A DNA stretch of 53,842 nt, taken from Candidatus Borkfalkia avistercoris. GTDB taxonomy: Bacteria > Bacillota > Clostridia > Christensenellales > Borkfalkiaceae. Positions 8,248-24,436 of this stretch are shown here, one piece after another. Position numbers and translations under genes: made by a program. How positions within the stretch are numbered: position 1 is the first letter of the stretch; every line of letters begins with the position of its first letter. The notes under the pieces were generated by a model, which worked only from the letters and a program-made list of their open reading frames with translations, was not told where the DNA came from and did no database searches. Location: contig DXCL01000041.1 in the NCBI GenBank assembly GCA_019115995.1, positions 1 through 53,842 of the forward strand, in the 5' to 3' direction.

Positions 8248-8276
8248 ATTATATAATAAAATACGTGCGTTTTCAA
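8248..8276 (-). promoter_or_regulatory. Promoter of the GH63-like unit
   Basis: On the minus strand, -35 TTGAAA (8271-8276), a 17-bp spacer and -10 TATAAT (8248-8253), about 26 bp upstream of the ATG at 8221. Confidence 0.8.
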
Positions 8277-8317
8277 TAGGTATATTGGGAAACTTTTTTG
8301 CAAAATTTGATAGAAAA

Positions 8318-8345
8318 GCAGGGAGCGCAAACAAGTTCTCCCTGC
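8318..8345 (-). terminator. Terminator of the ABC/lipoprotein operon
   Basis: The stem GCAGGGAG / CTCCCTGC reads into TTTTC on the minus strand, 12 bp after the stop of the lipoprotein gene. It separates block A from the GH63-like unit. Confidence 0.82.
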
Positions 8346-8356
8346 CATTCTGTAAT

Positions 8357-9385
8357 TTACTCCTCGTATACGGAGGAAAAATCAAAGTTTGCATCGGTGA
8401 TACCGACTACCAACGCAGTCTGTGTAACGGAAGGAACCCAGCCTGCCGTCTGCCCGTCATGGTTGGCCGTAATGCGGACGATCGCCTCGGAACCGAAACT
8501 CGATTCACTGCACATAAGTTGCGCATTACCGTCCGCGTCTTCAAAATAGAAAGAGATTGTGCCGCCGTTGCGCACGATACGGAAATAGATCCCTCCCTGC
8601 GTTTCAAAGAGGCTCGTGAATTCTTCCGGCGCCGCAAGATTGTCTGCCGTAGCCATCTTTCCGTACATAAGACCGCCTTCTTTTGTGTAACGAATACGAC
8701 AGTTGTACCAGCCCGTACCGTTTAACGTACATTCACGGTTCAAATTGATATTCACCTGCAAAACGCCGTTTGTAGGAAATTCCGCAAAAGATAATCCGTT
8801 TTCATTCGTCCAACTCATGAATCCGCGCAACACGAAATCGTCATAGAGATCTGCATACTGCGATTCGGAATTATAGCTCTTTCCTTCAAACAGGTTGTGG
8901 CTGATCGTCCCCGCGCTTGTTCCCGTCCCGTCCGTAAGGCGTATGGGTGCCAGATCGTCGCCGTAAATATCTGAGAATGTGATTTCGTTCTCGGCTGCTT
9001 TATCGGAAAAATACTTTCCGCAGACAAAACAGTGATAATACTCGCTGTGCGGACGGTTGATGCCGTCTCCCTCCGCCGCCGCATAGTACTCCACGGAATG
9101 CGAAACGGTGGGAATAGAAGCAACTTCCTGCGTAAGCTCGATCTCCGCATCTTCGTCAAAAAATATCTTTCCGCACAAAGAGCACGTATAATACCCGATA
9201 TGCCCCGGCTCTGTACAAGTGGGCTCCTGACGCTCCACTCGTTGCAATTCGTGTTCACAAACCACAGCGGGATTGTTGTTTTCTCCGCCGTTTTCCGTTC
9301 CCTGCCCACAAGCGGCAAGCCCCGTAAGCGCGCCGCAAGACATGACAAGCCCCAATAAACAACTCAAAAATTTCTTTTCTTTCAT
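8357..9385 (-). CDS. Surface lipoprotein with zinc-ribbon-like tags and a laminin-G-like domain
   Basis: 342 residues from the ATG at 9385, preceded by AGAGGA. Signal peptide with lipobox LAAC. After an Asn/Gly-rich linker come two CxxCG modules of about 45 residues (YTCSLCGKIFF and YHCFVCGKYFS), a tag often seen repeated in lipoproteins of gut Firmicutes. The C-terminal ~190 residues form a beta-rich jelly-roll like the laminin-G-like units of the 1302-residue protein of the same operon (GIYFRIVRNGGTISFYFED corresponds to LKLTLVRDGNVFYIFAD there). The likely role is glycan binding at the cell surface. It is last in the operon, 16 bp after the permease. No enzyme motif is seen. Confidence 0.7.
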   Translation of the reverse strand: MKEKKFLSCLLGLVMSCGALTGLAACGQGTENGGENNNPAVVCEHELQRVERQEPTCTEPGHIGYYTCSLCGKIFFDEDAEIELTQEVASIPTVSHSVEYYAAAEGDGINRPHSEYYHCFVCGKYFSDKAAENEITFSDIYGDDLAPIRLTDGTGTSAGTISHNLFEGKSYNSESQYADLYDDFVLRGFMSWTNENGLSFAEFPTNGVLQVNINLNRECTLNGTGWYNCRIRYTKEGGLMYGKMATADNLAAPEEFTSLFETQGGIYFRIVRNGGTISFYFEDADGNAQLMCSESSFGSEAIVRITANHDGQTAGWVPSVTQTALVVGITDANFDFSSVYEE

Positions 9386-9401
9386 GAGCATTTCCTCTAT
9401 T

Positions 9402-10349
9402 TTACTCCTTCCCGCCGCCAAAAGAGATACCCTCGATAAAAAACTTTTGGCAGAACAGGTACACGATGATCAGCGGAAGCATCGCCATAAGCGCCGTAGC
9501 GCAACGGAATGCGTAATCTCCGCTTACAGAAGTGGAAAGATATGCAATGAGTTTTTGCAATGCAAGCTGCAATGTCCACATGGATTCGATCTGATCGTTC
9601 AGATAGAGCAGAGCGCCCGAATAATTGTTATAACCGCCGACGAACCCGAAGATGAACTGCGCTATAAGGGCGGGTTTAGAAAGCGGGATAATGATCGCAA
9701 AGAAAATTTGCCAGAACCCCATACCGTCGATCTGCGCCGCCTCGACGATCTCGCCGCTGATCCCCTCCAAATACGGCCGCAGGAAGAATACCGTTCCCGC
9801 ACTGGCGAACATCCCCGGTACGATCATCGGGAGCCACGCCGCATATCCTTCCGTCCAGCCGATATTCTGATAAAACATATAACTCACGAAACCGAATGCA
9901 CCAAGAGGGACGAACATCAGTGTGACCGTGACCATAAAAAGAACGTTTTTGCAAGGAAAATTGTATCTGGAATAGCAATATGCCACCAAAAGGGACTGCA
10001 ACAATCCCGAAAAGAGAGGCAGCAACGTGATCCACATGGTATTGATAAACCCGCGGAACAACGACGGTATTCCGCCGATCATGTACGGGTCATCGGAAAA
10101 GAGGCGCAGATACCCTTCTATCGACGGGTTTTGCGGCCACCAGATATAGCCCGTAGCGTCTGCGTATTCCGCATTCGATGTAAAGGAGGTCACGAGAATG
10201 ATCAAAAACGGCGCAAGGATCCAAAGTGAATACAACAAAAGGATTGCATAAATGACGATGCGTCCGACATGGATCTTTTTGCCACTTTTCCTGCGGACGG
10301 ACGATTCTTTTTGCTTCGGCCCTGAAATCGCAATTGTTTCCTGTTTCAT
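9402..10349 (-). CDS. Carbohydrate ABC transporter permease, MalG type
   Basis: 315 residues. The ATG at 10349 follows AGGAATAAGAAA and sits 4 bp beyond the stop of the partner permease. Six membrane helices; the EAA loop that contacts the ATPase reads EIVEAAQIDGMGFWQIFFAI. With the preceding permease and binding protein it forms a CUT1-type importer for oligosaccharides. As is usual in Firmicutes, no ATPase is encoded with it, so a shared MsmX/UgpC-type ATPase elsewhere in the genome is expected. Confidence 0.92.
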   Translation of the reverse strand: MKQETIAISGPKQKESSVRRKSGKKIHVGRIVIYAILLLYSLWILAPFLIILVTSFTSNAEYADATGYIWWPQNPSIEGYLRLFSDDPYMIGGIPSLFRGFINTMWITLLPLFSGLLQSLLVAYCYSRYNFPCKNVLFMVTVTLMFVPLGAFGFVSYMFYQNIGWTEGYAAWLPMIVPGMFASAGTVFFLRPYLEGISGEIVEAAQIDGMGFWQIFFAIIIPLSKPALIAQFIFGFVGGYNNYSGALLYLNDQIESMWTLQLALQKLIAYLSTSVSGDYAFRCATALMAMLPLIIVYLFCQKFFIEGISFGGGKE

Positions 10350-10353
10350 TTTC

Positions 10354-11325
10354 TTATTCCTCCGCAGCCTTATTTCTTGCACGAATGACAAAGAATGAGA
10401 TCGCAAACGTAACGATAAACAGTACCCAGCTCATCACCGCGGCGTATTCCATTTCGCTCTGCTGTACGCCCTTGATGTAAATGTAGTAGTTTACGGTAAG
10501 CCCGATGTCCCCGGGCCCGGCAACGCCCGTCCATGACAGCGGCGCCAAAACCGTGACCGCATCGAAAACGGCAAGACCGCCGGTAATACTCGCCAAAAGC
10601 AAAAACAATGTTACCTGTTTAATCGCCGGAAGCGTAACGTACCAGAAACGGTCGAAACCGTTTGCCCCGTCCAGCGACGCGGCCTCGTACAGAGACGGAT
10701 TCACATTTTTGAGCGCAGCCTTGAACATAACGATGCCGTATGCGGGCGCCGACCAAACGGTAGTAATATAGACACACCATACGAGACGCGACGGATGCTC
10801 CGCATCGTTCAGCCAATCGATATTCGTGCCGAAAATAGCGTTCAAAACGCCAAAATCTTTGGAAAACACCCACTGCCACATGATCGCAACGGCAACTGCC
10901 GAGCAAATATACGGAATAAAGAACAGTACCTGCATTGCCTTCGCGCCCTTGACTTTCTGTTCCAAGAGAACCGAGATGATCAACGCGATCACCAGAGTCA
11001 CAAGCTGTGCACTTGCGAGCCAAAACGTCGTTTTCCATGATCTCCAAAAACGCTCATCATGGAATACTTCTATAAAATTCTGAAATGAATTCCACTCCAT
11101 TGTGGAAAGGTCGTTATTTTCCATATTCGTGAACATGGAAATGAAAGACAGCACCACCGGTACCCCGCTGAATACAGCGAAACTGACGATAGGAATAAGC
11201 GCAAGGCCGAAACACAGCCATTGTACAGATTTCCATTTTCTCTTTTTGGGCAGTTTCCGCCGGACGGCGAGCCCGGCTTCCGCGCTGCAACCGTCCGCAG
11301 CCATTGCTTCATCTTTGGTAACCAT
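10354..11325 (-). CDS. Carbohydrate ABC transporter permease, MalF/UgpA type
   Basis: 323 residues with a basic N-terminal tail, six membrane helices and the EAA motif EAASLDGANGFDRFWYVTLP. Its start overlaps the stop of the binding-protein gene by one base (TGATG), indicating translational coupling. It is the partner of the MalG-type permease that follows. Confidence 0.92.
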   Translation of the reverse strand: MVTKDEAMAADGCSAEAGLAVRRKLPKKRKWKSVQWLCFGLALIPIVSFAVFSGVPVVLSFISMFTNMENNDLSTMEWNSFQNFIEVFHDERFWRSWKTTFWLASAQLVTLVIALIISVLLEQKVKGAKAMQVLFFIPYICSAVAVAIMWQWVFSKDFGVLNAIFGTNIDWLNDAEHPSRLVWCVYITTVWSAPAYGIVMFKAALKNVNPSLYEAASLDGANGFDRFWYVTLPAIKQVTLFLLLASITGGLAVFDAVTVLAPLSWTGVAGPGDIGLTVNYYIYIKGVQQSEMEYAAVMSWVLFIVTFAISFFVIRARNKAAEE

Positions 11326-13223
11326 CAGCGGATCCCCTTGATGACGCAGTACATATTATTGAGGGCATTCTTTGCGTCATCTGCTTTTTCTGCAAGAAAC
11401 TCACTGATGGTATTTCTGCCGTAACGCAAGTTATTATTGAAATAGTCCGACCAGTCGGTCACCCAACTGCCGTTTTCAAAATAGCCCCAGTCGCCGCGAC
11501 TGACATTGCTCGCCATCATAGCAACCGCATAAAAGTTTTTCCCCTGCGCGATCGCCTCGTTTTCGACGTATGCGTCACTGAACAGAACGTCCGTCGCCAC
11601 GGGAGAGAGCGTATTCGTATAGGCGATATATTGCTGGCCCTCGGTCGCGACCCAGCTGATGAAATCCCATGCCGCCTGATACTTATCGGGATCGGAGCAT
11701 GCAGGAATGACAAGCCCCTGCGAAATGCCTGCCGTCGTCGTATTGCCGACGATCGGCGTTCCGTCTACTACTTTTAATTCGCCCGTGTACTCCTCGCCGT
11801 CATACGTTTCGCCGATGACTTTCAGATATTCGTTGGCGAATGTCTCCTCGCCGTCATAGTACACGCTGCCGCCCTCATATTCGCGGTACGTTTCGGCGGG
11901 ACAAATGTCGAAATCCGCCGCAGAATCCGACTCAAAGCGGTTGCGGATCCCTTCCGTCGTGCCGCGCACCATGACGATCTGCGCCGTATTGAACCAGTTA
12001 TCCGCGCTGCCCAGCTCAGGCGTAGCCACGCCGTAGCCCTTATAAGTCACGCCGTCCTTGACGTCAACCGTATTTGCCGTAGGCACCTGCACGGAAAGGT
12101 ATTCTTTGACCGCATTGTAGATCGATTCGATCGCATACACGCCGTCCATGGAGGCGATGTTGCTTTGATTGACCTTGTCCTCATAGCGCACGATCTCGCC
12201 CGCTGCGTATGTGTTGCCGTTGATCACGGTGCCGTCTTTCGTTACAATATAGTTTGCAGAATCGTCCATGAGCGTGAAGTCGTAATCCTGCCCGTTAAAG
12301 CCCATGACATCGCCGCCGACAGACCACCCGTAGTTGAACCAATACTCAGACGCAAAACCGTAATTCGTGGGAGAAGAAGAGGAATTATATTCCTTCGTGA
12401 AGCACTTGAACAGATAGCGCTGTTCCTCCCAATTCATGCCGATGCGGTTATTGAATACTTTATAGACTTGCTCCCCCGCGAGGTTTTCGGACTGCACGGC
12501 GCCCTCGAAAGGCGCCTCCTTGTATTCTGCATACCCGTGCGGCTGCACGTTCGGATATTCCTCAGCAAGCCGCTCCTCTTCGCAGGAGATCACGTTAATG
12601 CCCGACTCCTCGAACAGGCGCTCATTATACCAGTTGAACTGCGGATTTGTGCCGTACGGAACACCCAGCAAAGTCTGCCCCGCGCCGATGACATGTTTTT
12701 CCTGTCCTGCCCCCTGGCGCGCGTTCTGATTGTACGTCATTCTCCACCAATTCATCACATTTTCAGGAATGGTATTGTTTTGAAAATCCTCGTCCGCCTC
12801 CGCATAGGGCGTAAGGTCGAGAAAATAACCGTCAGGCGCATGATTGCTGTCCCGGCGGATCGCGAGCGTCTGAAAAGCGTTCTGCGAATCGCACACGGCG
12901 ACAACGTTGTACGCATAATCTTCGCCCCGGGTAAAGATGCTCGCCGCGGGAGACGATGCCCCGGCCTGCATTCTTGCCGATACATAAACACCGTCTTCAA
13001 GCCCCTGTCCGTCGTTATACGCCGTGATGAGGCCGACCCATGCATCTTCGGATACGGCGTTCGCATCGCACAAGAATGAGATTTCGATGCGGTCGCCCAC
13101 TTCATGTTCGCCGAGGTTGGAACCTCTTGACCCGCCGCCGCAAGCGGCAAGCCCGAACGATGTACTGATCAGCATCGCCGCCCCGACGCATACGGACAAT
13201 GCCTTGCCTTTCTTACCATTCAT
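11325..13223 (-). CDS. Extracellular sugar-binding lipoprotein of the ABC importer (large type)
   Basis: 632 residues, longer than usual for CUT1 binding proteins (about 400-450). ATG at 13223 with GGAGG before it. Signal peptide and lipobox LAAC followed by a Gly-rich linker. The MalE-like fold is supported by the sequence order and by WDFISWVATEGQQYIAYTN near the end, typical of the C-terminal hinge region of solute-binding proteins. The extra length lies mostly in loops of the first lobe and middle, which suggests a bulky ligand. It is first of the transporter trio. Upstream is the GH3 remnant and no clear promoter, so it is probably read through from the lipoprotein genes. Confidence 0.85.
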   Translation of the reverse strand: MNGKKGKALSVCVGAAMLISTSFGLAACGGGSRGSNLGEHEVGDRIEISFLCDANAVSEDAWVGLITAYNDGQGLEDGVYVSARMQAGASSPAASIFTRGEDYAYNVVAVCDSQNAFQTLAIRRDSNHAPDGYFLDLTPYAEADEDFQNNTIPENVMNWWRMTYNQNARQGAGQEKHVIGAGQTLLGVPYGTNPQFNWYNERLFEESGINVISCEEERLAEEYPNVQPHGYAEYKEAPFEGAVQSENLAGEQVYKVFNNRIGMNWEEQRYLFKCFTKEYNSSSSPTNYGFASEYWFNYGWSVGGDVMGFNGQDYDFTLMDDSANYIVTKDGTVINGNTYAAGEIVRYEDKVNQSNIASMDGVYAIESIYNAVKEYLSVQVPTANTVDVKDGVTYKGYGVATPELGSADNWFNTAQIVMVRGTTEGIRNRFESDSAADFDICPAETYREYEGGSVYYDGEETFANEYLKVIGETYDGEEYTGELKVVDGTPIVGNTTTAGISQGLVIPACSDPDKYQAAWDFISWVATEGQQYIAYTNTLSPVATDVLFSDAYVENEAIAQGKNFYAVAMMASNVSRGDWGYFENGSWVTDWSDYFNNNLRYGRNTISEFLAEKADDAKNALNNMYCVIKGIR

Positions 13224-13264
13224 AATTAAACCTCCAATTACTTTTGAAACGTGTACCCCGTACC

Positions 13265-13458
13265 CGATTTAACCGATCCTGATCTTTTTCCGCAGACGCT
13301 TGATATTCACGCCGGGCCCGAGCAAAACACCGACATCCTGCCCGATACGATCGTTGCCGAGCTTTTGCCCTTTTCATACGCAAGAGATGTGTCCTACGTC
13401 TAATTGGTCCAGAAGTCCGCGCCCATAAGCAGTTTTACTTTCTGTTCCGCGGTCGGTT
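13265..13458 (-). pseudogene. Remnant of a GH3 beta-glucosidase
   Basis: Two short pieces match the N-terminal region of GH3 enzymes in different frames: AEQKVKLLMGADFWTN (about 13402-13449), then KLGNDRIGQDVGVLLGPGVN ending in IKR (about 13298-13361). In intact GH3 enzymes these lie roughly 80-100 residues apart, with a conserved DGPHGLR segment between; here that segment is gone and stops interrupt both frames. The rest of the enzyme (about 700 residues) is absent. This is a scar of a lost gene in the middle of the operon and gives no product. Confidence 0.62.
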
Positions 13459-13517
13459 TTCAAATATCTGTATTACCTTTTTTGTTTCGCACATGCGGTG
13501 CGCAGATTTTCAGTCTC

Positions 13518-13538
13518 GGGCGGGGAAATCCCCCGCCC
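13518..13538 (-). terminator. GC-rich hairpin after the 1302-residue lipoprotein gene
   Basis: GGGCGGGG / CCCCGCCC with a 5-nt loop lies 18 bp past the stop. No T-tract follows on the minus strand, so it is better seen as a partial terminator or an mRNA-stabilising 3' hairpin that lets some transcription pass to the ABC genes. Confidence 0.45.
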
Positions 13539-13555
13539 TTAACCGTTTTTCAACT

Positions 13556-16500
13556 CTACTCAGCGCTTGTATCGCCGAGGATCTGAATTCCTGCAAACGG
13601 AAGCTGATTATAACCGTTTCCGTTAAAGTGCAGCGTATACTCACGAACCTCGTCTTCCGCCCAATCCGTTGTGTCGACATCGATAACGATCATCTCGTTG
13701 ACTTGTGACACCGAACTTGCACGCTGATAACTGAATTTTATAAAGTCTTCCCCTTCCAAAATGAAAGTACCGCCGTGATTGGACATCCACCAGCCGCCCA
13801 CGAACAAACGGATCTGCTTCACGTCTTTCGCGATCTTGATGGCCATATCGAACTCTCCGGTGATACAGGGAGCAACGCCCGCCGTATCTCCGTCGTATAC
13901 GCCCCACGCATGCGAATCCAGATCGTAATCACTCGCTACCCCTTCCTTATTGGACGCAGCCGCAGAAATATCGAGTAAATCGCTCGGGTCGCCGCTCGTT
14001 TCGGCCGCACATTCATTTTCGCCCGTCGATTTGAAATATTCGTAAGCCAAAACTGACATGCCGTTTACGGCATCACCGAGTTGGATATCCTCCGTGTTGT
14101 CTGAAACCTTTGTGACTTCAAAAGCGGTGGCCGGTTTCATAAAGGTCGCGGCAACGGTAATATCCGTACCCAACGCATACGACAGTTTGCCGTCAACGAT
14201 GGAAGACGTTACGTCAATACCGTTGATCAGAAGTTCCGCGCACACATATCCATCTGCCGGCGTTATTGTGAGTTCGATCATGCCGAGGGGAACATTCTCC
14301 GTTTGGGGAGCGGTGACGGTTCCGTTCTCGGGAGATCCGATCGAGACCGTGAAATTGTAATTCTCCGCAATCATCTCCGCATCGAGATACTCATACACGG
14401 GAGGAACGTTCGTCGCACCGTCGATCCAGAAAAACACCGTACCGTCTGCCTGCGCATATTTTTCGTCAAGGACGAGCGTATCCGCAAGTCTTTCGCCGAT
14501 ATAAATATACAGAACGTTCGCGTCGCGTATGAGCGTCACTTCCAACGTGCCGTTATTGAATGCGTCGACTTCTTCCGCCGTAAAATCACCGACTCCTTCG
14601 CCACCGGGTTTCGACCAATCCGCTTTCAGTGCGGCTCCGCCCATTTCGCCATTGATCGTATCGTCCCATGCATATTGCAGATATCCGTTTGTACCACGGA
14701 ACTCAGTTCTGATCACGACATAGTCCAATTTTCCGGCATCATTTACAAAGCCGTAGATAAACCCATGACGATACAGGTTCGCCTCCAAGGAATATGCGGT
14801 GGACATGGTGATGGTCAAGCCCTCGGTATACGTCGTGTTTTCTGCGCCGATCGCCTTTTGTCCGGTCGTCTCCTCTTCCACGATCAAGGTATACAATGCA
14901 ACGGAATCTGTCGGCGTATCTCCTCCTATCGTTATTTCCACTTCATAGTACCCGTCAGCAATAAGCGTGTAGGTACCCGCAAGGAACTCGCCGACGATCC
15001 TCCCGTCCGTCAACTGTACGTTGTATTCAACCCCGTTCCCATTCAGGATAACCGACGTTATCGCGCCCGTTTCCGCATTGCGGTAAATATCATAGGACGT
15101 TACGTCGATATCGGCTTCGGCCAATGACCCTTGTGCAAAACTTACCTCAACGGTATAAGTACCCGCCGATGTAGTTGTGAATACATACCTGCCGCCTTCT
15201 ATTTTGTCGAGAAGGCTCTCCCCGTTGATTTCAAAAAGCGTAATGATATAACCATCATCGGGGGTGACGGTGATCACCATTTCGTCCCCGATTTTTCCGC
15301 TCGTTTTGTCAGCCGTGATCGTACCGCCGTTCGCACTTTCGGGCAGAACAAGCGTGATATCGACCCAATCGGCGACATTTTCGGAAGAAATATAATTATA
15401 ATCTATTGCGTTTCCGGACGCCGTCCAGACGGCAACGCCGATCGCACCGTCCATTTCGGCATAAATCGCCGGGGCAACGAATGTGGTCATCAAACGGCTG
15501 TCCGCAAAGATATAGAACACGTTTCCGTCGCGTACCAACGTCAATTTCAGCGTCCCCGCGTCGAACGCGCTGCGTTCGTCGTTAGTAAAGGAAACCGATG
15601 ACCAGTCGCCCTTTAAGCTATCGCCCGACGCCGCAGAATTTCCGGCGTTATCGGGTGCGAACTGAACATAAAAACCGTTGCTGCGGTACTCGATACGGAT
15701 ATCCAGCCAGTTGCCGTTGCTGAAAGTATAGAAAATACCTTGTTGATACAAATCGGAATTCGAATTGTTTTTCGAAAGCGTGAGCGTAAGACCTTCGGAA
15801 TAGACTGTTTCGTCCGCACATATATCGGCAACGCCCGATATTCCCGCGTCAAGCAAAAGTTCTTCGAAAGCAAGAGCGCCTTCGTAACCGCCTTCTTCGA
15901 CAGTGATGCTCAGTTTATAATATCCGTCGATTTCCGCCGTATAAGAACCGGGCGCGACGCTGTCTGCGGCGATCTTACCGTCGGCAACGGACAAAGTATA
16001 TTCATATGCCTGGTTATACAGCAAAACCGTCTTACCCGCAGAATCGGAAGAACCGTCCTTATTTTTAACCGTTACCGTTGCAGAGAAAGAAACAGGATCC
16101 GCAACCTCTCCAAATGTTGCGCCGACGCTGTAAGTCGTGCTGTCGGCGCGGAACGTATAAACTCCGCCCTGAACGACGCTCGTAACCTCTTCATCGTTCA
16201 ACGTCACGCTCTGCAATGCATAACCTTCTGCTGCCGTGAAAGTGACCGTTACCGTGTCGCCGATCTTATAAGCCGACTGACCAAGCGTCGCAGAACCGTT
16301 TACCATCTCGTCCAAATCGACCGTAACCGCTTTTAGATATGACGAAACATCTTCCTCGATCCTGAAATGCCACTGGGGATTTATGCTGTACACAGCGTCC
16401 TTTGCCCAAAAACCGACCTGTACGCCGTCGTCCGCATACTGTTCGTCGACGGTGATCACATCCGCCAGACTGCCGTCGACAAAGGCATAAATGCGGGCGC

Positions 16501-17464
16501 CCTGCCGGACGAGGGTGATTTCGAGGGTGCCTGCCTCGTGTTTTGCGATGATCTCTTCGGGCGTCGAATTGTAATAAATCGAATTCCCGTTTCCGTCGAG
16601 AAAAGTATTTCTGCCGCCCGTCGCATCAAGGGTAATATTCTCTCCGTCTGCGATCCATTGGTCATTATAATAGTCGGTTCCGTCCCATTCGATTCTCGTG
16701 TTGCTGTCTCCGATTGCAACGGAAATAAAGTTACCGTCTTCAAAGAAGATCCAAAGCCCCTCCGCATTGTTCGCATACTCTCTGTTTACCGTCATCGTTA
16801 GGGCAACGTCATCATACCGATCGACTGTCTTTTCCGCCAACGTATTGCTTGTCGTTCCGATACGGCCGTCCTCTTCATTGACATAGGTATAATTCGGGCT
16901 GTTCCAACCTACGGCGCTTGTGAACGCCGCATATTCAAGCGTACTTGCCGCCTGCCCGAGCACCGTATTTTTTCCCGCCTCGACCTGAATTTGCGCGGAA
17001 GTGGAATTGTAGCCGAGTTTGGAGATCGTAAGCGTATACGACTGTCCCGCCACAAGATCGGAAAGCTCGAATTGCCCCGTCGCGCTGTCATAATCGACGG
17101 TAACACTGTCGTCGCCGAGGTCGATCGTTACCCCCGTATAGTCCTCGACGTACTGACCGAGTTTGTGCAGATAGATCTGCCCGCTGGCTGTGCCGTATTC
17201 CTTAGGCACAGACGGATCGCCGCCGCTCTCCTGTGCCCCGCACTCGCATTCACCCGCCACAAAAACGTGATCCCCATAGGAACTTTCGTCGATCGCGCCG
17301 TCGTCGGGGCATACTTTCCAATGCTGTTCGTTGTCATACGCCCACTGCGTATAACTGTGCACGTGTGTTTCTTCGTTCCCGCCGCACGCCGCGAAAAGGC
17401 CGAGACATGCGAAACAAAGGAGCGCTAAAACAGACATTGTCAACATTTTCAGTTTTTTGCTCAT
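13556..17464 (-). CDS. Giant surface lipoprotein with three laminin-G-like modules
   Basis: 1302 residues; AAAGGAGAAAGGG precedes the ATG. Signal peptide and lipobox FAAC. A short His/Cys tag follows (HVHSYTQWAYDNEQHWKVC then CECGAQ), then a carboxypeptidase-regulatory-like beta domain (SGQIYLHKLGQYVEDYTGV). Three jelly-roll modules of about 190-200 residues come next (around 185-370, 540-700 and 885-1060), each with a TLxxTLVRxGxxxYxFxxGR-like core strand. Each is followed by a ~50-residue beta unit of the pattern GYxxxxLxINGxxV...GxYxF...V..F, like divergent InlB B-repeats. A final galactose-binding-like domain (about 1130-1300) ends the protein. No catalytic motif is visible. It is probably a glycan-capturing scaffold on the cell surface, within an operon of lipoprotein enzymes. 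Confidence 0.75.
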   Translation of the reverse strand: MSKKLKMLTMSVLALLCFACLGLFAACGGNEETHVHSYTQWAYDNEQHWKVCPDDGAIDESSYGDHVFVAGECECGAQESGGDPSVPKEYGTASGQIYLHKLGQYVEDYTGVTIDLGDDSVTVDYDSATGQFELSDLVAGQSYTLTISKLGYNSTSAQIQVEAGKNTVLGQAASTLEYAAFTSAVGWNSPNYTYVNEEDGRIGTTSNTLAEKTVDRYDDVALTMTVNREYANNAEGLWIFFEDGNFISVAIGDSNTRIEWDGTDYYNDQWIADGENITLDATGGRNTFLDGNGNSIYYNSTPEEIIAKHEAGTLEITLVRQGARIYAFVDGSLADVITVDEQYADDGVQVGFWAKDAVYSINPQWHFRIEEDVSSYLKAVTVDLDEMVNGSATLGQSAYKIGDTVTVTFTAAEGYALQSVTLNDEEVTSVVQGGVYTFRADSTTYSVGATFGEVADPVSFSATVTVKNKDGSSDSAGKTVLLYNQAYEYTLSVADGKIAADSVAPGSYTAEIDGYYKLSITVEEGGYEGALAFEELLLDAGISGVADICADETVYSEGLTLTLSKNNSNSDLYQQGIFYTFSNGNWLDIRIEYRSNGFYVQFAPDNAGNSAASGDSLKGDWSSVSFTNDERSAFDAGTLKLTLVRDGNVFYIFADSRLMTTFVAPAIYAEMDGAIGVAVWTASGNAIDYNYISSENVADWVDITLVLPESANGGTITADKTSGKIGDEMVITVTPDDGYIITLFEINGESLLDKIEGGRYVFTTTSAGTYTVEVSFAQGSLAEADIDVTSYDIYRNAETGAITSVILNGNGVEYNVQLTDGRIVGEFLAGTYTLIADGYYEVEITIGGDTPTDSVALYTLIVEEETTGQKAIGAENTTYTEGLTITMSTAYSLEANLYRHGFIYGFVNDAGKLDYVVIRTEFRGTNGYLQYAWDDTINGEMGGAALKADWSKPGGEGVGDFTAEEVDAFNNGTLEVTLIRDANVLYIYIGERLADTLVLDEKYAQADGTVFFWIDGATNVPPVYEYLDAEMIAENYNFTVSIGSPENGTVTAPQTENVPLGMIELTITPADGYVCAELLINGIDVTSSIVDGKLSYALGTDITVAATFMKPATAFEVTKVSDNTEDIQLGDAVNGMSVLAYEYFKSTGENECAAETSGDPSDLLDISAAASNKEGVASDYDLDSHAWGVYDGDTAGVAPCITGEFDMAIKIAKDVKQIRLFVGGWWMSNHGGTFILEGEDFIKFSYQRASSVSQVNEMIVIDVDTTDWAEDEVREYTLHFNGNGYNQLPFAGIQILGDTSAE

Positions 17465-17511
17465 TTCCCTTTCTCCTTTTTTATTTTATAAAAGCCGTAA
17501 GGCATTTTACC

Positions 17512-18555
17512 TCAATTCAGTTCCACGCGGATCTCCACGTCTTCCGTCGGAACCCCGATTGAAAACTGATAGACCCCGCTCGACAAGACCAGGCTGTCAA
17601 TATAATCTTGTCCGTTTACCGTCAGCGCAGTGACCGACGCTCCGTTCAGCGGCGTAATGGTAAACGTTACCGCATTATCGACCAGCATATAGGGTAAACC
17701 ATGGCTCTCCTGCAACGTTCCCGTACCGGTTCCGCCGTACTCCACGGTATAATCGTAGGCAACCAGACCGTTCTTGTCGAATTTAAAGAACGTGGAAGGA
17801 TTCTGCCACAAACTTCCGATATAGTCCGTCGACCACCTGGACCAATAACGGTCGTTCGACTGATCCGTACCCTCATAATTAAATGAAAAGATGTGTGCAG
17901 GATCGATTCCGAGGACGAGGGAATCCCGTTCCTCCTGCGTTTCCACGTCATATCCTGCAAATTCAAGGAACGTCCACGGGAAAAGCGCCTCAACGGTGTA
18001 ACCATAACATTCGGGCGTATTCACCTCGCCGCCGAGTGCCTGCGAAGCCACAACCGGCATTTTATCCCATGTCGTCTTTGCATCATTCCAACCGTTATAG
18101 TTGAGGCGGGAACTGTATGTGCCGTCCGCCTGAAAATCGAATTCAAAAATGCGGCGGCTTCCTCCCGGATCGGTGGCGGGGCCCATATACATCTCAATGC
18201 AGCTGTTCATGACCGAACCCCTGTCATGATTGACATAGATATTGGTGCCGTGCTCCTCAACCCTCATCGCAAAATAGACGCCCTGTTCCCCGTACGATGT
18301 CGTAAAAGAAATATCGGCATACTGAACGGCATTGATCCTGTCTACCGCATACAGCCAGCGCACTTCATTCCAACGTGCTTCATCAAATATGCCGTCGATC
18401 GTCATATCCGCATCGACTTGTGCCTGCGGCTGCTCCGGATTTGTAAAGGTATAGGCATTCGGATCCTCGACGATCGTCGTTCCGCAACCGGCAAGAGATG
18501 CCGAAAGCAACGCACAACAACTCATAAGCGCCGCCGCTTTTATCCACTTTTTCAT
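17512..18555 (-). CDS. CBM9-like surface lipoprotein
   Basis: 347 residues; AAGGAGG precedes the ATG; lipobox LAGC. The region 45-260 starts with DADMTIDGIFDEARWNEVRW and has VYFAMRVEE and YTVEALFPWTFLEF, the hallmarks of CBM9/DOMON-like carbohydrate-binding modules. A C-terminal ~60-residue beta unit (VTALTVNGQDYIDSLVLSSG) is the same small module found in two neighbouring proteins. No enzyme domain is present. It likely binds saccharide ends at the surface. Eleven bp separate it from the GH43 gene. Confidence 0.75.
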   Translation of the reverse strand: MKKWIKAAALMSCCALLSASLAGCGTTIVEDPNAYTFTNPEQPQAQVDADMTIDGIFDEARWNEVRWLYAVDRINAVQYADISFTTSYGEQGVYFAMRVEEHGTNIYVNHDRGSVMNSCIEMYMGPATDPGGSRRIFEFDFQADGTYSSRLNYNGWNDAKTTWDKMPVVASQALGGEVNTPECYGYTVEALFPWTFLEFAGYDVETQEERDSLVLGIDPAHIFSFNYEGTDQSNDRYWSRWSTDYIGSLWQNPSTFFKFDKNGLVAYDYTVEYGGTGTGTLQESHGLPYMLVDNAVTFTITPLNGASVTALTVNGQDYIDSLVLSSGVYQFSIGVPTEDVEIRVELN

Positions 18556-18566
18556 GTTTTTCCTCC

Positions 18567-20453
18567 TTATTTGCCGAGAATGCGAATTTCGGAAATCCCG
18601 ACCCGTTCCTGCCCTTCGGGAAGATCTACCGTGATGCTGACGGACGTCACATCTAAGTCATAGAACTCGGCAAATGCCGCCGCCCCCGAAGTGACGTAGT
18701 TGATCTCTCCCGAAAAATCAGAAACCTCGCAATACTGATCGACGTCGAACGAAAGATCGCGGATCACTCGCGTACTTCTGTCTGCGAGCGTAAACTCGAT
18801 GCGCGAAATATTCAAGAAAATGTCTCGGTAGGACGCCGAATTGTACACCATGACCGCACGGATCGTGCGAGCGGAGCCAAAAGCAAAGGTAAACGTCGTC
18901 TGAGTATCCGACGAATACGTTTCCCGCACATAGCTCATGAATGTCGGATCCGCTGTCTTATGTACGGAAAGGAATCCGTCCGTCACGCAGGAGATCTCCG
19001 CTTCTTCGTTGCTGCAAGACACCTGTGCCTCCGCAGCTATGTTTTTATAGCCGCTGACAGATTCCGGAAGGGGCTGCAACGTATCGGTAGGCCCGTTGGT
19101 ATACGGCACGACAAGATCGTTTCCGTTTATATCCTTGACCGTAAGCCATTTGACTTCATCCATCGCCGTATAACGGTCGGACCCGCCGACAAGATAGTTC
19201 CTATGACGGTGATAGATAATATACAACTGATCGCCCACATATGCGAAGGAATGATGCCCCGCGCCGGAAACGGAGTTGCTTTCCGTTGTACTCGAACACA
19301 ACAACAAGCCGCCTTCCTCTTCCGTCAGTTTGCGGAAAGGCCCCATCGGGCTGTCGCCCACCGCAGTCGCCACGCGATAGTTGCTCGACCCGTATCCGTT
19401 CGCGGAAAACGTGAGATAATAAACGCCGTCGCGATAGAGCATATGCGGCCCTTCGTTACAGTTTTCCGATTCATAGGAGACACCGTAATTTGTGTTATTG
19501 CGCCAATCCTCTACCGTATAATAGTTGACCATGAGCACGATCTCGGCATTGTCCCAGTCGGGCGTAAGCCAGTCAAACATGTGCACGACCATGATCCCGT
19601 TCGTGCCTTCCATCTTCACATAGAGGTACTTCTCTCCCGTTTCGGGGTCTTCAAAGGGGGACGGATCGATATTTCCGAAATATCCTCTGCCGTTCAATCC
19701 CGTTTCATCGGAAACTCCGTTGTTGCGGTTGAATTTGTACAATTCATCCGGGCTGAAAAGGCAATACTTCGCAAAATAGTGCGGGAATGCCGCCTCATAG
19801 TACACACCGTCCTGACGAACCCATGCATACTCGGAAAACTCGTTTTCATCAAGCACGATGCCGGCAGTCGTATTGTAATCATGCAAAGCCGATTCTCCGC
19901 AGCTTGCCGCATCCATGAAATTTACCATTTCAAACGGGCCTTCCGCGCTGTCGGACGTTGCCACATAGAGGTTGCAATAGCTTACGCCGCTGACGATGCC
20001 GCTTCCCTCCGTATACGTTGTATCCTCTTCGGCCGTTGCACTGAAAAACAGATAATAAAGTTCTGTTTCATCGTCGTAGATCACCTCCGGCGCCCACATA
20101 TCCGCATGCAGAAGCCGGGGGATCTCCCCGTCGACGGGCGGGACGAGAGTCGGGCCGACGTCTTCCCACACCGCAAGATCTTTGGATCGCATGATGGAAA
20201 AGCTGCCAGAAGTCCCGTACAAATAATAGTAACCGCTCCGCGCCGTATCGTCGAGCACGAACGGATCGGGATACCCCTGCTGCAACGTATTGCTGTAAAA
20301 AAGCTGCTCATTGTAAACGGAATCACCGCTTTCGTCCTTGTTCTCTCCATGATAATAAGAGAGCGCATATTCCTCCGAAGCACAACCGGCAAACGCAGTT
20401 AAACCGAGCAATGCCGCCATGCATACAGCCAATACAGTTCTTTTTTTTCTCAT
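18567..20453 (-). CDS. GH43-family lipoprotein glycosidase (arabinanase/xylosidase type)
   Basis: 628 residues; lipobox FAGC; AGGAG before the ATG. GH43 five-bladed propeller enzymes cleave alpha-L-arabinofuranosyl or beta-D-xylosyl bonds by inversion. The three acidic residues are recognisable: D63 in GYPDPFV (base), D263 in NIDPSPF (pKa modulator) and E334 in ENCNEGPHML (acid). WAPEV (about 120-124) is the usual propeller motif. After about residue 460 a discoidin-like beta-sandwich follows (NIAAEAQVSCSNEE to VGISEIRILG), probably a carbohydrate-binding module. The enzyme is anchored outside the cell. Among the complete genes it is the clearest pointer that block A targets arabinose- or xylose-containing plant polysaccharide. 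Confidence 0.85.
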   Translation of the reverse strand: MRKKRTVLAVCMAALLGLTAFAGCASEEYALSYYHGENKDESGDSVYNEQLFYSNTLQQGYPDPFVLDDTARSGYYYLYGTSGSFSIMRSKDLAVWEDVGPTLVPPVDGEIPRLLHADMWAPEVIYDDETELYYLFFSATAEEDTTYTEGSGIVSGVSYCNLYVATSDSAEGPFEMVNFMDAASCGESALHDYNTTAGIVLDENEFSEYAWVRQDGVYYEAAFPHYFAKYCLFSPDELYKFNRNNGVSDETGLNGRGYFGNIDPSPFEDPETGEKYLYVKMEGTNGIMVVHMFDWLTPDWDNAEIVLMVNYYTVEDWRNNTNYGVSYESENCNEGPHMLYRDGVYYLTFSANGYGSSNYRVATAVGDSPMGPFRKLTEEEGGLLLCSSTTESNSVSGAGHHSFAYVGDQLYIIYHRHRNYLVGGSDRYTAMDEVKWLTVKDINGNDLVVPYTNGPTDTLQPLPESVSGYKNIAAEAQVSCSNEEAEISCVTDGFLSVHKTADPTFMSYVRETYSSDTQTTFTFAFGSARTIRAVMVYNSASYRDIFLNISRIEFTLADRSTRVIRDLSFDVDQYCEVSDFSGEINYVTSGAAAFAEFYDLDVTSVSITVDLPEGQERVGISEIRILGK

Positions 20454-20487
20454 AATTTACTCCTGTCCTTTTATTTCCGGCAACGCT

Positions 20488-21495
20488 TTACGCATCTTTT
20501 GCCGCGATCTCGCACCCGGCATTTACGAGAGTATCCGTAAATATAGAATAGTATTCCGTAAGCGGATGCACGCCGTCACTAAGCATCGATGTACTGATTT
20601 TCGGCGAGGTATTCACGCAAGTGATCCAGTCATACTGCGCGCACCAATTCGCAAGATCGGCATTCGTCTGGGTAACCTGCGCCGAATACGCCGTATCCTG
20701 CCGCTGCGTGATATTGAACCAATAGATATTCGTTGTGGGATAACTCGTGTGCAGATACTTGAAAAGACGTATCAGGCTCTCTTCCGTCTGCTCTACCGAA
20801 GCGCGGATATCGTAAAAATTATTTGTTCCGAGATGAATGACTATGTTTTTGGGCGATGTTTCCCCGATTATGTCGGAGTACATTGCCTCCCAATGGTAAG
20901 AATTCGTGGAACTGATGCCCGCATTCAGCACGTCTTTGTCCGCCGCATAAGAAGACATATATTCGCCTATATATGCGTCGTCCATAAAGCTGTCGCCCAA
21001 AAAGATGGTCGTATCATCCGTTACGGCACTGCATCTCGTTGCATTAGCTGAAATTTTTGTAGTGAATTCGGATATATCGTACCACGGGTCCGCATCAGAA
21101 CCTGTCAGCGGGATATAGTCAACCGTTACACGGAAAGTCGTCGAGAAGTGTTCGCTCTCCGCGCGCACGTTTACCGTCGCATCTTCACGTTTGAGCGGAG
21201 TTACGATATCGTTCTCGATCTTAATTTCTTCCGCATCATAAGTATAGGTGAGTTCCTCCGCCTTATCGGGAACGGTGAAGATGGGTGTGATCTCCGCGAA
21301 AGTGTAGGCGCGGTCGGTGTTGATATAGACCGTCAGATCTTCGATACACAGATATCCGTAGCCATTCGTTTCATCCGTCTGCGGCTGACCGGAGCCGCCG
21401 CTCTGTTCACTCTGATTCCCGCCGCACGCCGCAAACATGCCGACAGACAGCGCAAGAACGAGCGCCAAAGGCAATACCTTCCATTTTATTCGCAT
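20488..21495 (-). CDS. SGNH-hydrolase lipoprotein (esterase/deacetylase candidate)
   Basis: 335 residues from ATG 21495, preceded by GGAGG; a longer in-frame start lacks a ribosome site. Lipobox FAAC. An N-terminal beta-sandwich (about 45-130) is followed by an SGNH/GDSL domain with block I FLGDSF (Ser169), block II NAGIS (Gly193), block III HLGTNN (Asn225) and block V SDGVH (Asp307, His310), so all four catalytic elements are present. In glycan loci such enzymes often remove acetyl or feruloyl groups so that glycosidases can act. It is a paralogue of the C-terminal half of the next upstream gene. Confidence 0.82.
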   Translation of the reverse strand: MRIKWKVLPLALVLALSVGMFAACGGNQSEQSGGSGQPQTDETNGYGYLCIEDLTVYINTDRAYTFAEITPIFTVPDKAEELTYTYDAEEIKIENDIVTPLKREDATVNVRAESEHFSTTFRVTVDYIPLTGSDADPWYDISEFTTKISANATRCSAVTDDTTIFLGDSFMDDAYIGEYMSSYAADKDVLNAGISSTNSYHWEAMYSDIIGETSPKNIVIHLGTNNFYDIRASVEQTEESLIRLFKYLHTSYPTTNIYWFNITQRQDTAYSAQVTQTNADLANWCAQYDWITCVNTSPKISTSMLSDGVHPLTEYYSIFTDTLVNAGCEIAAKDA

Positions 21496-21583
21496 AATTT
21501 CCTCCCTTGAAGAATGGGAACATACTCTGTTCCCATATTTCGTTATCTGCAAAAATCCCGGTATAAAACTCAATTGTCTTATA

Positions 21584-23443
21584 TCATTTCCTCTCTACGA
21601 CGCACCCTGCCGCTTCCAATGCAGGCACATAAATATTGGCGTACGTTTCATTTTTCGGGTGCAATCCGTCCTTCAAATCGCTCGAAGAGACTCGGCCCTC
21701 CACATTCACAAACGTGATCCAATCTTTATATTCGCACCACTGTTCCATTAAATCGTTTACCGAGGATATTCTTGTTGCGTGCGCCGTGGTATCGACTCGC
21801 TGCGTGATCGAGAGATAATAAATGTTTGTATTCGGCATTTTATCGTGCAGCAACGTAAACAGCCGCTGCAAATTTTCAGCCAATCCTTCTGTCCTGTCCC
21901 AGTCGGCGGCCAAATTGTTTGTGCCGAGGTTGACGACAAGATTTTTCGGCTGCATATCGTCGAGAATGCCGTCGAACAGGAAGTTCTCCCAGTCGTAAGT
22001 CGTCGTGGCTCCGATACCGAGTTCGAGCGCGTCATATTCGTTTGCATACGACGTATAGAAGTTGCCCCAGTTCCCCTCGGTATTGTCGAAGAAGGAATCG
22101 CCGAGGAATACCGTAGTCGTGCCGTTAGTCCCGTCGGACGCATACCGCGACTTTATATTGTTTGCCTTTTGAGAGTAAGCCGAAGAATCCCACTTGCCCG
22201 TTCCGGTCCTGCTTACACTCGAACCGATCACATTGAAACTTGCCGTGTCGCTGCCGCTCGTTACCTTTACTTCAAACGTTCCCTCGGCGAGCGCTTTTAC
22301 GGTTTTCGCGTCTTTGTCGATCGTAAGTTTGGAGGTATCGTATTCGAGTGTATAATCGTTCTCCCCGTTGTTGAGTTCCAGCGTAAATTCCGACGCGGGG
22401 TAGTCGATCCAGGCATATACGTCGCTGACAACGATATTTTCAACTTCCTCAGCCGTAAATACGGGTACGACCGTCGTATCGTCCGCTGCGGTAAAGAAAT
22501 AGACGTCTGCAACTACGTCATCGATGCATTCTTCACCATTCACCAGCAAAGAGGTGAGCGCGTATCCCTCATCCGCGGCGATATTCAGATTGACCACGTC
22601 GCCCGTTATCGTCCAATCATAACCCCACTCTTCGGTAACGCTGCCGCCTTCCGCCTCCGCAATGTCAAGGCTGTTGGAAACGAATCCGTTGCTGTCAAAC
22701 ACATACCCCGAATTCGGTTTCCCCCACTCGTATAGTGTGCTTTGCTGCTCGCCGAAGTTATACCAAGTACGTAAATCGGCGATCGCCTCGCCTTTGTCGT
22801 CAAACGTGGCGGAGATCATGGTAGGATTAAAATACACCGTGTCCGGTTTGCCGCTCCTGCCGAACAGCGCATAGGGCATAAAGTATTCCACATAATACTC
22901 ATAACATTCGCCGTTTTGGATGTCGCCGATGCAACGCACTGCATGAACAGGCGTTACGTCTGCCTCCGTGTCCATTACATGCAGCTCTCCCGAAATAAAT
23001 TCGGAAATCTTGAATATATTGGAGGCGGTGTTTTCCACTTCATACACGTCATCGCCCGTCGAAGTCGTATCACCGAACGCGAAATACCCGCTGAAACACG
23101 TTTGGTCACTCGTCTCGACCGAACTGCCGGACACAGCGGCGCGGCTGTCGACGATGTGTGCGGCAACCACTATCCCCGTTTCGGAAAAATATGTCGTCAT
23201 TTCAAGCGTACCCGTTTCCGTCTGATCGTTTTGCAGCACTCTCTTATTAAGGGTCAGCCAGTTCCTGCCAGTATAAAACGATTCGTCAAAAGTACCGTCG
23301 ACCGCGATCCCCTTATCGACTTCAACCGTCTGCCCCGTAGTATCTGCTGGCCCGTCCGCAGATCCTCCGCATCCCGCGAACACCGTGCACCCCATCAACA
23401 GCGTACCAAGCATGATTGCTGCGACTTTCCCTAATCTCCTCAT
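21584..23443 (-). CDS. CBM9-like plus SGNH-hydrolase fusion lipoprotein
   Basis: 619 residues; GGAGG before the ATG; lipobox FAGC. The N-terminal CBM9-like module (about 45-270) opens with GIAVDGTFDESFYTGRNW. The shared ~50-residue beta unit (YALTSLLVNGEECIDDV) and a Big-like Ig unit come next. The SGNH domain follows at about 415-619, with FLGDSF, LGIGAT, NLGTNN and KDGLH as blocks I, II, III and V. It combines in one chain what the operon also encodes as separate proteins. It is extracellular and membrane-anchored. It is the first structural gene after the LacI regulator and is probably co-transcribed with it (33 bp gap, no promoter seen). Confidence 0.8.
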   Translation of the reverse strand: MRRLGKVAAIMLGTLLMGCTVFAGCGGSADGPADTTGQTVEVDKGIAVDGTFDESFYTGRNWLTLNKRVLQNDQTETGTLEMTTYFSETGIVVAAHIVDSRAAVSGSSVETSDQTCFSGYFAFGDTTSTGDDVYEVENTASNIFKISEFISGELHVMDTEADVTPVHAVRCIGDIQNGECYEYYVEYFMPYALFGRSGKPDTVYFNPTMISATFDDKGEAIADLRTWYNFGEQQSTLYEWGKPNSGYVFDSNGFVSNSLDIAEAEGGSVTEEWGYDWTITGDVVNLNIAADEGYALTSLLVNGEECIDDVVADVYFFTAADDTTVVPVFTAEEVENIVVSDVYAWIDYPASEFTLELNNGENDYTLEYDTSKLTIDKDAKTVKALAEGTFEVKVTSGSDTASFNVIGSSVSRTGTGKWDSSAYSQKANNIKSRYASDGTNGTTTVFLGDSFFDNTEGNWGNFYTSYANEYDALELGIGATTTYDWENFLFDGILDDMQPKNLVVNLGTNNLAADWDRTEGLAENLQRLFTLLHDKMPNTNIYYLSITQRVDTTAHATRISSVNDLMEQWCEYKDWITFVNVEGRVSSSDLKDGLHPKNETYANIYVPALEAAGCVVERK

Positions 23444-23476
23444 TTTTACCTCCTACTATTATTTTTATCGTTGCCT

Positions 23477-24436
23477 TTATTTACTGAGTTCGACGGGAAA
23501 TATCTCACGCACAATTTTCCCGTCATACTTTTCAATCTTACGAATCAGAAGTTGAGCGCTTCGTTTACCGATAGTTCCAAGTTTGCCGCCCACACTCTTC
23601 ACTTTGCGGCAATAGGAAAGATATTCCGAAAAACGGTCTACACCGTAAATCTCTCCCCGAAAATTCTTTTCCGTCTCCATCGCTTCCTGTACCCCCGCCG
23701 CGATCTCATCGTTAAAGCAAAAGATAAAGTCGTTTTCGTTCTCCTGCACGCTGCGCTTGATTTTTGCCAATGACGGCTCTTTATTATAATAATTATAGGA
23801 ATATATATCGCAGCTCAGGCCGCTGTTCCTTAATATAGAAACAAAACTATCCCGCCGCTCGTCATTGAGATTGCTTTTAATGCCGTTCACATAGCACGGT
23901 TTTTTTGCTCCGCAGGCAAGCGCTTCCTGCGCTACCAGTTTCGAGCACTGATGCTCGTCCGAATAAATGGCGCATACTCTGTCGCGACGGGGCTTCTGCC
24001 CGCAAATGAGCAGCGGCACTTCATTCTGTTCGCAATAATCTATACTATCGTCTGTAACGTCCAAAAAAGATAATATCCCGCAGGCGCCGTTCTGAATGCA
24101 GGATATGATGTCTTCCACATCTAAATCTTCTCTCACGATAGAAATGAGAGGCCGATATCCTTTTTCGTTCATATAATCGATACAATGATCCATGCAGATA
24201 GAAAAAAACGGATTCGTGAGCGAATTGATAACGACCGCAATGATGTTCGATCGTTTGGAACGCAAAAAGCCGGCGATCCTGTTCGGCACATACCCCATTT
24301 CCATCGCCGTCTGCTTTACCCGATCCTTCATAGGCGCGCTGATGTCTGAACAGTCGCGCAACGCCCTGCTGACCGTGTTTTTCGAGGTTCCTATCCTCTC
24401 CGCTATATCGTCTAACGTAACGACTCTTTTTTGCAT
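23477..24436 (-). CDS. LacI-family transcriptional regulator of block A
   Basis: 319 residues. The N-terminal helix-turn-helix TLDDIAERIGTSKNTVSRAL and hinge helix (NRIAGFLRSKRS) are typical. The periplasmic-binding-protein-like effector domain runs from about 62 to the end, with NPFFS and FCFNDEIAAGV at the expected places. Members sense a sugar and release DNA. It heads the block A operon, so it probably controls itself and the downstream lipoprotein/transport genes. A 16-bp palindrome lies between the -35 and -10 of its promoter. Confidence 0.9.
   Translation of the reverse strand: MQKRVVTLDDIAERIGTSKNTVSRALRDCSDISAPMKDRVKQTAMEMGYVPNRIAGFLRSKRSNIIAVVINSLTNPFFSICMDHCIDYMNEKGYRPLISIVREDLDVEDIISCIQNGACGILSFLDVTDDSIDYCEQNEVPLLICGQKPRRDRVCAIYSDEHQCSKLVAQEALACGAKKPCYVNGIKSNLNDERRDSFVSILRNSGLSCDIYSYNYYNKEPSLAKIKRSVQENENDFIFCFNDEIAAGVQEAMETEKNFRGEIYGVDRFSEYLSYCRKVKSVGGKLGTIGKRSAQLLIRKIEKYDGKIVREIFPVELSK

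Follow-up and report, generated by a model that had tools for sequence, protein, structure and literature searches.

A putative lipid-anchored polysaccharide utilization locus with a recurring GH43–CBM9-like lipoprotein pair in Candidatus Borkfalkia avistercoris

Gene content of the locus

The window analysed here is contig DXCL01000041.1 (C27), a 53,842-nucleotide stretch of the 1.77-Mb, 46-contig, 88.6%-complete assembly of Candidatus Borkfalkia avistercoris, and our subject is a minus-strand gene cluster within it that encodes an ATP-binding cassette (ABC) importer among a set of predicted lipoproteins (Table 1). A preliminary description, made from the sequence alone, had placed the cluster at 8357–23443 and counted six lipoproteins besides the binding protein of the importer. 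All of its open reading frames (ORFs) are found where it put them, on the minus strand, and the importer and six further lipoproteins are borne out; only the edges were drawn slightly too narrow, as we take the unit to extend from the gene of the LacI-family regulator LacI1 (to 24436) through that of a GH63-like enzyme (from 6710). In the direction of transcription, LacI1 is followed by a lipoprotein combining a CBM9-like domain with an SGNH esterase (CBM9+SGNH), a second SGNH esterase (SGNH2), a GH43 enzyme, the CBM9-like lipoprotein, a very large lipoprotein (Giant), the solute-binding protein SBP1, the permeases PermF and PermG, a 354-residue lipoprotein, the GH63-like enzyme and, lastly, GH28-like and GH78-like ORFs. 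SGNH2 and PermG are likely to start at the ATG codons at 21495 and 10349, respectively. Promoter-like sites show no excess over shuffled sequence (21 versus a mean of 23.1), and the perfect inverted repeats that a search for operator palindromes found upstream of LacI1, several in number, do not recur inside the operon.

The names GH43 and SGNH hold, with matches above the Pfam cut-offs. Residues D63, D263 and E334 of the GH43 protein, which we take to be its catalytic triad, are invariant across 24 aligned rows. Its family profile has 4qqs as the best solved match (E 1.1e-57), followed by proteins named as xylanases and xylosidases/arabinofuranosidases; arabinanases rank lower, and 48 sequences in all reach E ≤ 1e-10. 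Both SGNH domains carry the GDSF, GTNN and DG-HP motifs. SBP1 alone gave no convincing Pfam match; a 27-row profile leads to sugar-binding proteins, the first of 109 being the arabino-oligosaccharide-binding protein 6rjy (E 2.1e-36), presumably from Geobacillus stearothermophilus. By this profile comparison, SBP1 is related to a known arabino-oligosaccharide-binding protein. An ATPase gene is absent from the locus, and the sole OB_MalK match in the assembly lies on another contig. The cassette of one relative does include an ORF that has an ABC ATPase domain (L052:16701–18545).

Table 1. Features of the locus and adjoining ORFs, in order of transcription
Feature	Position	Strand	Basis and remarks
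LacI1, LacI-family regulator	23477..24436	-	First gene of unit; Pfam LacI E 2.2e-11
CBM9-like domain + Flg_new_2-type module + SGNH esterase lipoprotein	21584..23443	-	Pfam Lipase_GDSL_2 E 4.2e-14; motifs GDSF, GTNN, DGLHP; lipobox FAGC
SGNH2, SGNH esterase lipoprotein	20488..21573	-	Pfam Lipase_GDSL_2 E 6.2e-9; lipobox FAAC; motifs present
GH43 lipoprotein + conserved C-terminal domain	18567..20453	-	Pfam GH43 E 2.5e-34; lipobox FAGC
CBM9-like lipoprotein	17512..18555	-	Fold match, linkage to GH43; lipobox LAGC
Giant lipoprotein, 1302 residues	13556..17464	-	Repeat alignment, Pfam, fold search; lipobox FAAC
Decayed GH3 relic, between Giant and SBP1	13224..13555	-	Two pieces matching intact GH3 in locus L041
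SBP1, solute-binding lipoprotein of the importer	11325..13223	-	Family profile; lipobox LAAC
PermF, ABC permease	10354..11325	-	Pfam BPD_transp_1 E 1.1e-13
PermG, ABC permease	9402..10406	-	Pfam BPD_transp_1 E 9.1e-14
354-residue lipoprotein: two Cys/His-rich modules + C-terminal domain	8357..9421	-	Lipobox LAAC
GH63/MGH1-like enzyme without lipobox	6710..8221	-	Last gene of shared block; Pfam MGH1-like_GH E 3.5e-42
GH28-like ORF, 358 residues, outside shared block	5673..6749	-	Pfam GH28 E 1.6e-4, below cut-off
GH78-like catalytic-domain ORF, outside shared block	4145..5455	-	Pfam Bac_rhamnosid6H E 3.6e-11

Lipoprotein signals and anchoring

Of the ten genes that run from LacI1 through the 354-residue protein, seven encode an N-terminal lipobox under a strict rule. 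This rule picks out 6 of 255 ORFs when applied to a 311,781-base sample of the genome, and 1 of 292 when applied to reversed sequence as a control; the clustering of lipoproteins therefore exceeds chance. The strict rule undercounts, missing SBP2, the binding protein of the neighbouring locus. A looser rule returned 23 of 255 ORFs and 20 of 292 in the reversed-sequence control and was dropped for counts. Across the related loci described below, the strict lipobox is found in all 47 SBP1 ORFs, in 36 of 44 CBM9 ORFs and in 45 of 85 GH43 ORFs, the last set including signal-less GH43 of about 300 residues. A sortase was detected in none of 101 sampled genomes of the family, which would explain the lipid anchoring, and this pattern suggests that the lipoproteins take the place held elsewhere by cell-wall-anchored enzymes. 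Lipid anchors and coupling to the importer in genome context support the earlier view of the cluster as a Gram-positive surface glycan-capture locus, whose anchored parts would sit on the membrane face of the importer.

A conserved core in related loci

We divided 77 loci with relatives of the GH43 protein into 62 with mostly long matches (shorter in L119, L136 and L137), here called related loci, and 15 with distant ones; the division was made after inspecting the table, and the 15 serve as a comparison group, not as a blind control. The related loci come mostly from gut metagenome assemblies and are not independent, as a single genome can contribute several (L080, L089 and L122 are one such set) and L126 and L129 overlap. 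One of them, L136, belongs to a named strain, Acholeplasma granularum ATCC 19168. To detect genes, every ORF of at least 70 residues was compared with profiles that had been built iteratively from those ORFs themselves, a procedure that can raise the counts; a first-look survey gave a count of at least 67 of 398.

Within the fetched stretches, SBP1 was found in 49 of the 62 related loci and 1 of the 15 distant ones, permeases in 48 and 2 (a count of that transporter type in general, since the profiles match the same ORFs after iteration), the CBM9-like domain in 45 and 0, Flg_new_2 in 33 and 0, and SGNH in 22 and 0. A LacI1-type regulator is present in 14 related loci. The CBM9 ORF directly follows GH43 in 35 of the 62 and is fused to it in 5; a permease directly precedes GH43 in 39, and both neighbours flank it in 26.

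The linkage is also seen from the CBM9 side. A search with the CBM9-like model listed 61 matches, in at least 27 of 151 family genomes, and from those listed we chose 24 hits in 20 regions, mostly in places not fetched before (the contigs of L180 and L197 are also represented by L134 and L107). GH43 was adjacent in 18 of the 24 and fused in 4, so that 22 are paired, and 17 of the 18 gaps measure 3–22 nucleotides. CBM9 ORFs neither cut off by a stretch end nor fused to GH43 are shorter than 450 residues in 11 cases and larger in 26. These observations indicate that the conserved core is SBP–PermF–PermG–GH43–CBM9 lipoprotein and that Giant is a variable extra.

Domain fusion recurs among the relatives. 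The GH43+CBM9 fusions (L109, L110, L116, L133 and L146) and a GH43+SGNH fusion (L121) are proteins of 1140–2771 residues from records labelled Erysipelotrichaceae, Oscillospiraceae or Tyzzerella; that of L110 also has SGNH, and the window itself holds the CBM9+SGNH fusion. Genome G003 (L180–L184) has 13 CBM9-like hits with several consecutive GH43–CBM9 pairs or fusions, a lineage expansion.

Fold of the CBM9-like lipoprotein

The CBM9-like protein has no Pfam match at E ≤ 1, but its predicted fold supports the label that the preliminary description had given it. The AlphaFold2 model has a mean predicted local distance difference test (pLDDT) score of 90.4, and its best match in a fold search is 7nwn, a CBM9 (E 3.7e-6, probability 1.00, template modelling score by target 0.64), with 4jpq, a putative carbohydrate-binding protein, second (E 5.1e-6). 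The N-terminal part of CBM9+SGNH matches the CBM9-like ORF at E 2.7e-13 and 25% identity. The model thus supports a CBM9 fold. With a lipobox, no enzyme-family match (E ≤ 1) and a gene encoded together with an enzyme and an importer, the protein is a candidate surface glycan-binding protein (SGBP), its position at the surface being predicted. No match to it was found among 72,556 plasmid records (E 1e-5).

The giant lipoprotein and the 354-residue protein

Giant consists of a Cys/His-rich N-terminal module, three repeats (transthyretin-like/laminin-G-like/Flg_new_2) and a C-terminal domain. Pfam recognizes Flg_new_2 over the cut-off (E 1.6e-6) and CarboxypepD_reg below it (E 6.5e-7). A model of the last repeat and the C-terminus has a mean pLDDT of 69, with the repeat mostly at 70–96 and the C-terminus poor, and the fold matches include beta-glucanase and neurexin LNS folds (both at E 3e-4 to 3e-3) and the transthyretin-like domain of carboxypeptidase D; all are weak, E 2.3e-4 being the best value, and they stand among hits to unrelated proteins. 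The fold thus lends weak support to the laminin-G-like label proposed for the Giant repeats. The same label finds no support in the 354-residue protein, whose profile–profile comparison with those repeats gave a weak match (probability 39.6% over 30 columns). As the GH16 active-site motif is absent from the Giant repeats and present in the GH16 protein of the window, the repeats are probably not catalytic.

The preliminary description had drawn particular attention to the giant lipoprotein. Its repeats occur in 6 of the 62 related loci, versus 45 for the CBM9-like domain, and its C-terminal domain in one; we therefore rejected Giant as a hallmark of the system. The C-terminal domain of the 354-residue protein occurs in four. 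Co-occurrence of Giant with the permeases, proposed earlier as a check, was seen in four of the six repeat-bearing loci; L080 has the binding protein only and L079 neither, and both of these stretches end early. In the window, L078–L080 and L083, the CBM9 protein and Giant are encoded side by side as two proteins, both with a lipobox, whereas in L081 and L082 a large CBM9 ORF includes Giant-type repeats. Given this alternation, Giant is best read as an extension of its CBM9 partner that has split off or has not yet fused, with either direction of change allowed.

Cys/His-rich modules lie directly behind the lipobox in both Giant (P0005, residues ~27–80) and the 354-residue protein (P0001, ~40–150). 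That of the latter has weak zinc-finger Pfam matches only, and comparable N-termini are seen elsewhere among the ORFs of the family (G140, G105 and G123 are examples).

Horizontal transfer and decay

Positions 6732–24432 (17.7 kb) match Candidatus Gallimonas merdae, a member of another genus, at 83–89% DNA identity with short gaps, and the flanks do not match. The GH63-like gene is 94% identical. The rpoB proteins of the two genomes share only 77.5% identity, and a congener (G106) with 93% identical rpoB has locus proteins that are just 39–49% identical. Set against this divergence, the shared block indicates that the unit was horizontally transferred, although mis-binning in either assembly could also have produced it.

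The two pieces of the GH3 relic are 82% and 69% identical to an intact 649-residue GH3 at the same place in L041. The 358-residue GH28-like ORF stops early relative to relatives of 509 residues, with the same frame still aligning to 5367, and the GH78-like ORF is probably incomplete, its N-terminal part apparently missing; decay or assembly error may account for both truncations (4145–6749).

Proposed function and alternatives

We consider it likely that this locus is a lipid-anchored Gram-positive polysaccharide utilization locus (gpPUL) with which a Borkfalkia-like gut bacterium captures and trims an arabinose/xylose-bearing plant polysaccharide and then imports the products. Polysaccharide would be held at the membrane by the CBM9-like lipoproteins together with Giant and its repeats, and there the SGNH esterases would remove acyl groups and the neighbouring GH43 would cut arabinose/xylose-bearing chains or side chains. 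SBP1 would catch the resulting oligosaccharides and pass them to PermF/PermG, which would draw their energy from a MalK-type ATPase whose gene lies outside the locus. Digestion would be completed in the cytosol, here by the GH63-like enzyme, and LacI1 would regulate the locus. Glycan binding, substrate, surface complex and regulation are the parts of this scheme that we infer. Both arabinose/xylose-bearing hemicellulose and pectic side chains are candidate substrates, and the sequence does not decide between them.

Several observations weigh against this proposal, besides the unspecific permease count. The CBM9-like domain was not found in 17 of the 62 related loci, nor SBP1 in 13, and stretch ends account for some of these cases only. 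Two of the 24 CBM9 copies (L185 and L189) have no GH43 neighbour, and in three of the 18 adjacent cases (L190, L192 and L193) the GH43 neighbour is found on the opposite side, with a match broken into pieces. The CBM9-like family profile matches 7nwn weakly, at E 0.0075, its only match below E 0.1, and W238, conserved in 31 of 32 CBM9-like rows, could not be placed on the ligand site or aromatic clamp. As 332 nucleotides separate Giant from SBP1, the genes may not share a single transcript. Conservation does not extend to the cytosolic half: none of the 62 fetched stretches yielded a GH63-like, GH78-like or rhamnulokinase gene (L078 ends before the place of the GH63-like one), and one yielded a GH28-like gene. 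Finally, although the lipoprotein-processing proteins LspA and Lgt, found in 38 and 37 of 41 sampled family genomes, respectively, speak for the proposal, Lgt is above the curated cut-off in only 16, and both Lgt models missed Bacillus subtilis among the controls; the incomplete assembly of the window is itself among the misses for both proteins, so that the anchoring machinery is family-level evidence. Both other genomes of the genus in this sample carry LspA and Lgt.

The weak CBM9 sequence signal would also suit a different role, in which the CBM9-like lipoprotein and Giant serve to hold the cell or the enzyme in place, as adhesins or stalks, and do not themselves capture the food glycan. 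Flg_new_2 modules (of the InlB B-repeat type) and transthyretin-like modules, both repeated in Giant, are common in adhesins. We regard this role as unlikely, given that 22 of 24 CBM9 copies are paired with or fused to GH43, that linkage to an oligosaccharide importer is repeated and that a CBM9 is the best fold match. The short gaps between the genes and the GH43–CBM9 fusions fit subunits of a single complex, and would be expected if the CBM9-like lipoprotein were a docking subunit for GH43 or SBP1 that builds a surface complex, with carbohydrate binding secondary. That putative role is compatible with carbohydrate binding; it seems rather doubtful to us.

As to the substrate, a rhamnose-containing pectic polymer of the rhamnogalacturonan I (RG-I) type, in place of free arabinan or arabinoxylan, is a genuine possibility that we nevertheless do not favour. 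It would account for the GH78-like and GH28-like ORFs directly downstream and for the rhamnulokinase gene upstream (25345–26754; NCBIfam E 2.2e-123, below the curated cut-off). Yet all three lie outside the block shared with Gallimonas, only the GH28-like gene recurs near a related cassette, and the two downstream ORFs look incomplete. Either reading would be consistent with the arabinan side chains that RG-I carries.

Beyond this one locus, we propose tentatively, at close to an even chance, that it represents a widespread class of monoderm gut polysaccharide utilization loci (PULs) with SGBPs of their own: a CBM9-like lipoprotein that regularly accompanies one GH43 family and an ABC importer, enlarges through fusion into giant repeat proteins and is lipid-anchored for want of sortase. 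Such a class would be an independent, monoderm counterpart of the Bacteroidetes SGBP, present in lineages that include Borkfalkiaceae, Erysipelotrichaceae and Acholeplasma. Should the CBM9-like lipoproteins prove to bind glycan, monoderm gut bacteria would have SGBPs, marked by a recurring and searchable gene pair, and this would help to account for the ability of gut bacteria with small genomes and no sortase to compete for fibre.

Neighbouring and other loci of the genome

A second, similar locus occupies 27770–40327 of the window, on the minus strand. It encodes a LacI-type regulator, two permeases, an SBP_bac_1 protein, a GH16 lipoprotein and lipoproteins of 709 and 443 residues, of which the smaller matches CBM_X2 and Glug at scores under the cut-off. 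A 1061-residue protein (31024–34209), at first labelled GH94, is weakly similar to the beta-1,3-glucan phosphorylase family GH149, to which the search points and which replaced that label. This locus probably serves the uptake of beta-1,3-glucan. Between the two glycan loci, on the minus strand (25345–27564), lie the rhamnulokinase gene and that of a regulator that we read as DeoR-type from its sequence. Elsewhere in the genome, a further importer locus (L036; C8:10000–27503) has permeases 28–32% identical to PermF/PermG beside GH43 genes, and several ORFs that are lipoprotein-like by the loose rule adjoin these permeases.

Comparison with known systems

The gpPUL is defined by an enzyme, a transporter and a regulator encoded together (PMC5320581). 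The locus has all three, in GH43, in SBP1 with two BPD_transp_1 permeases and in LacI1, and therefore belongs to a class already known; the suggestion that it was an undescribed system did not hold against this published definition. The Roseburia and Eubacterium rectale gpPULs are alike in combining an enzyme, an ABC importer and a regulator with no SusC/SusD, and Ros-2 brings together GH28, two GH43, CE12 and an ABC system (PMC5320581). The authors of that study think that polysaccharide binding rests on carbohydrate-binding modules (CBMs) within enzymes, and some of their starch enzymes carry putative sortase signals (PMC5320581). By contrast, the candidate binders in the window are separate lipoproteins, in a family whose sampled genomes gave no sortase.

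The mixed-linkage glucan gpPUL of Blautia producta likewise pairs a surface enzyme with a lipid-anchored solute-binding protein and an ABC importer; according to its authors it has no SGBP, for which an enzyme-borne CBM often substitutes (PMC10318527). The window locus differs in having candidate SGBP-like lipoproteins. Also comparable is the arabinan system of Geobacillus stearothermophilus, whose extracellular GH43 enzyme AbnA carries a concanavalin A (ConA)-like arabinan-binding domain (PMC9110388). The system presumably also includes the arabino-oligosaccharide-binding protein 6rjy, the first profile match of SBP1. AbnA has its binding domain within one enzyme, whereas in the window the enzyme, the CBM9-like binder and the putatively ConA-like repeats are mostly separate lipoproteins. 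For the CBM9-like domain itself, the closest fold and profile match is CBM9.3 of a Caldicellulosiruptor kristjansonii xylanase-esterase (7nwn), which forms one part of a multidomain enzyme and has an aromatic clamp (PMC8280721); its counterpart here is predicted to be lipid-anchored, and the position of a clamp in it could not be traced.

The resemblance to the Bacteroidetes Sus-type PUL noted in the preliminary description stands as one of logic only, in that a surface enzyme, a surface binder and an importer are combined: none of ten locus proteins has a SusC/SusD-type Pfam match, and Omp85 was found in none of 41 sampled family genomes. A description of the GH43–CBM9 lipoprotein pairing was not found among the listed titles and openings of abstracts, where most subscription journals lie outside the coverage, which is no proof that it is unpublished. 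What is known, then, is the gpPUL class; the less expected part is a conserved GH43–CBM9 lipoprotein pair, and candidate surface binders that are proteins in their own right would be a new twist.

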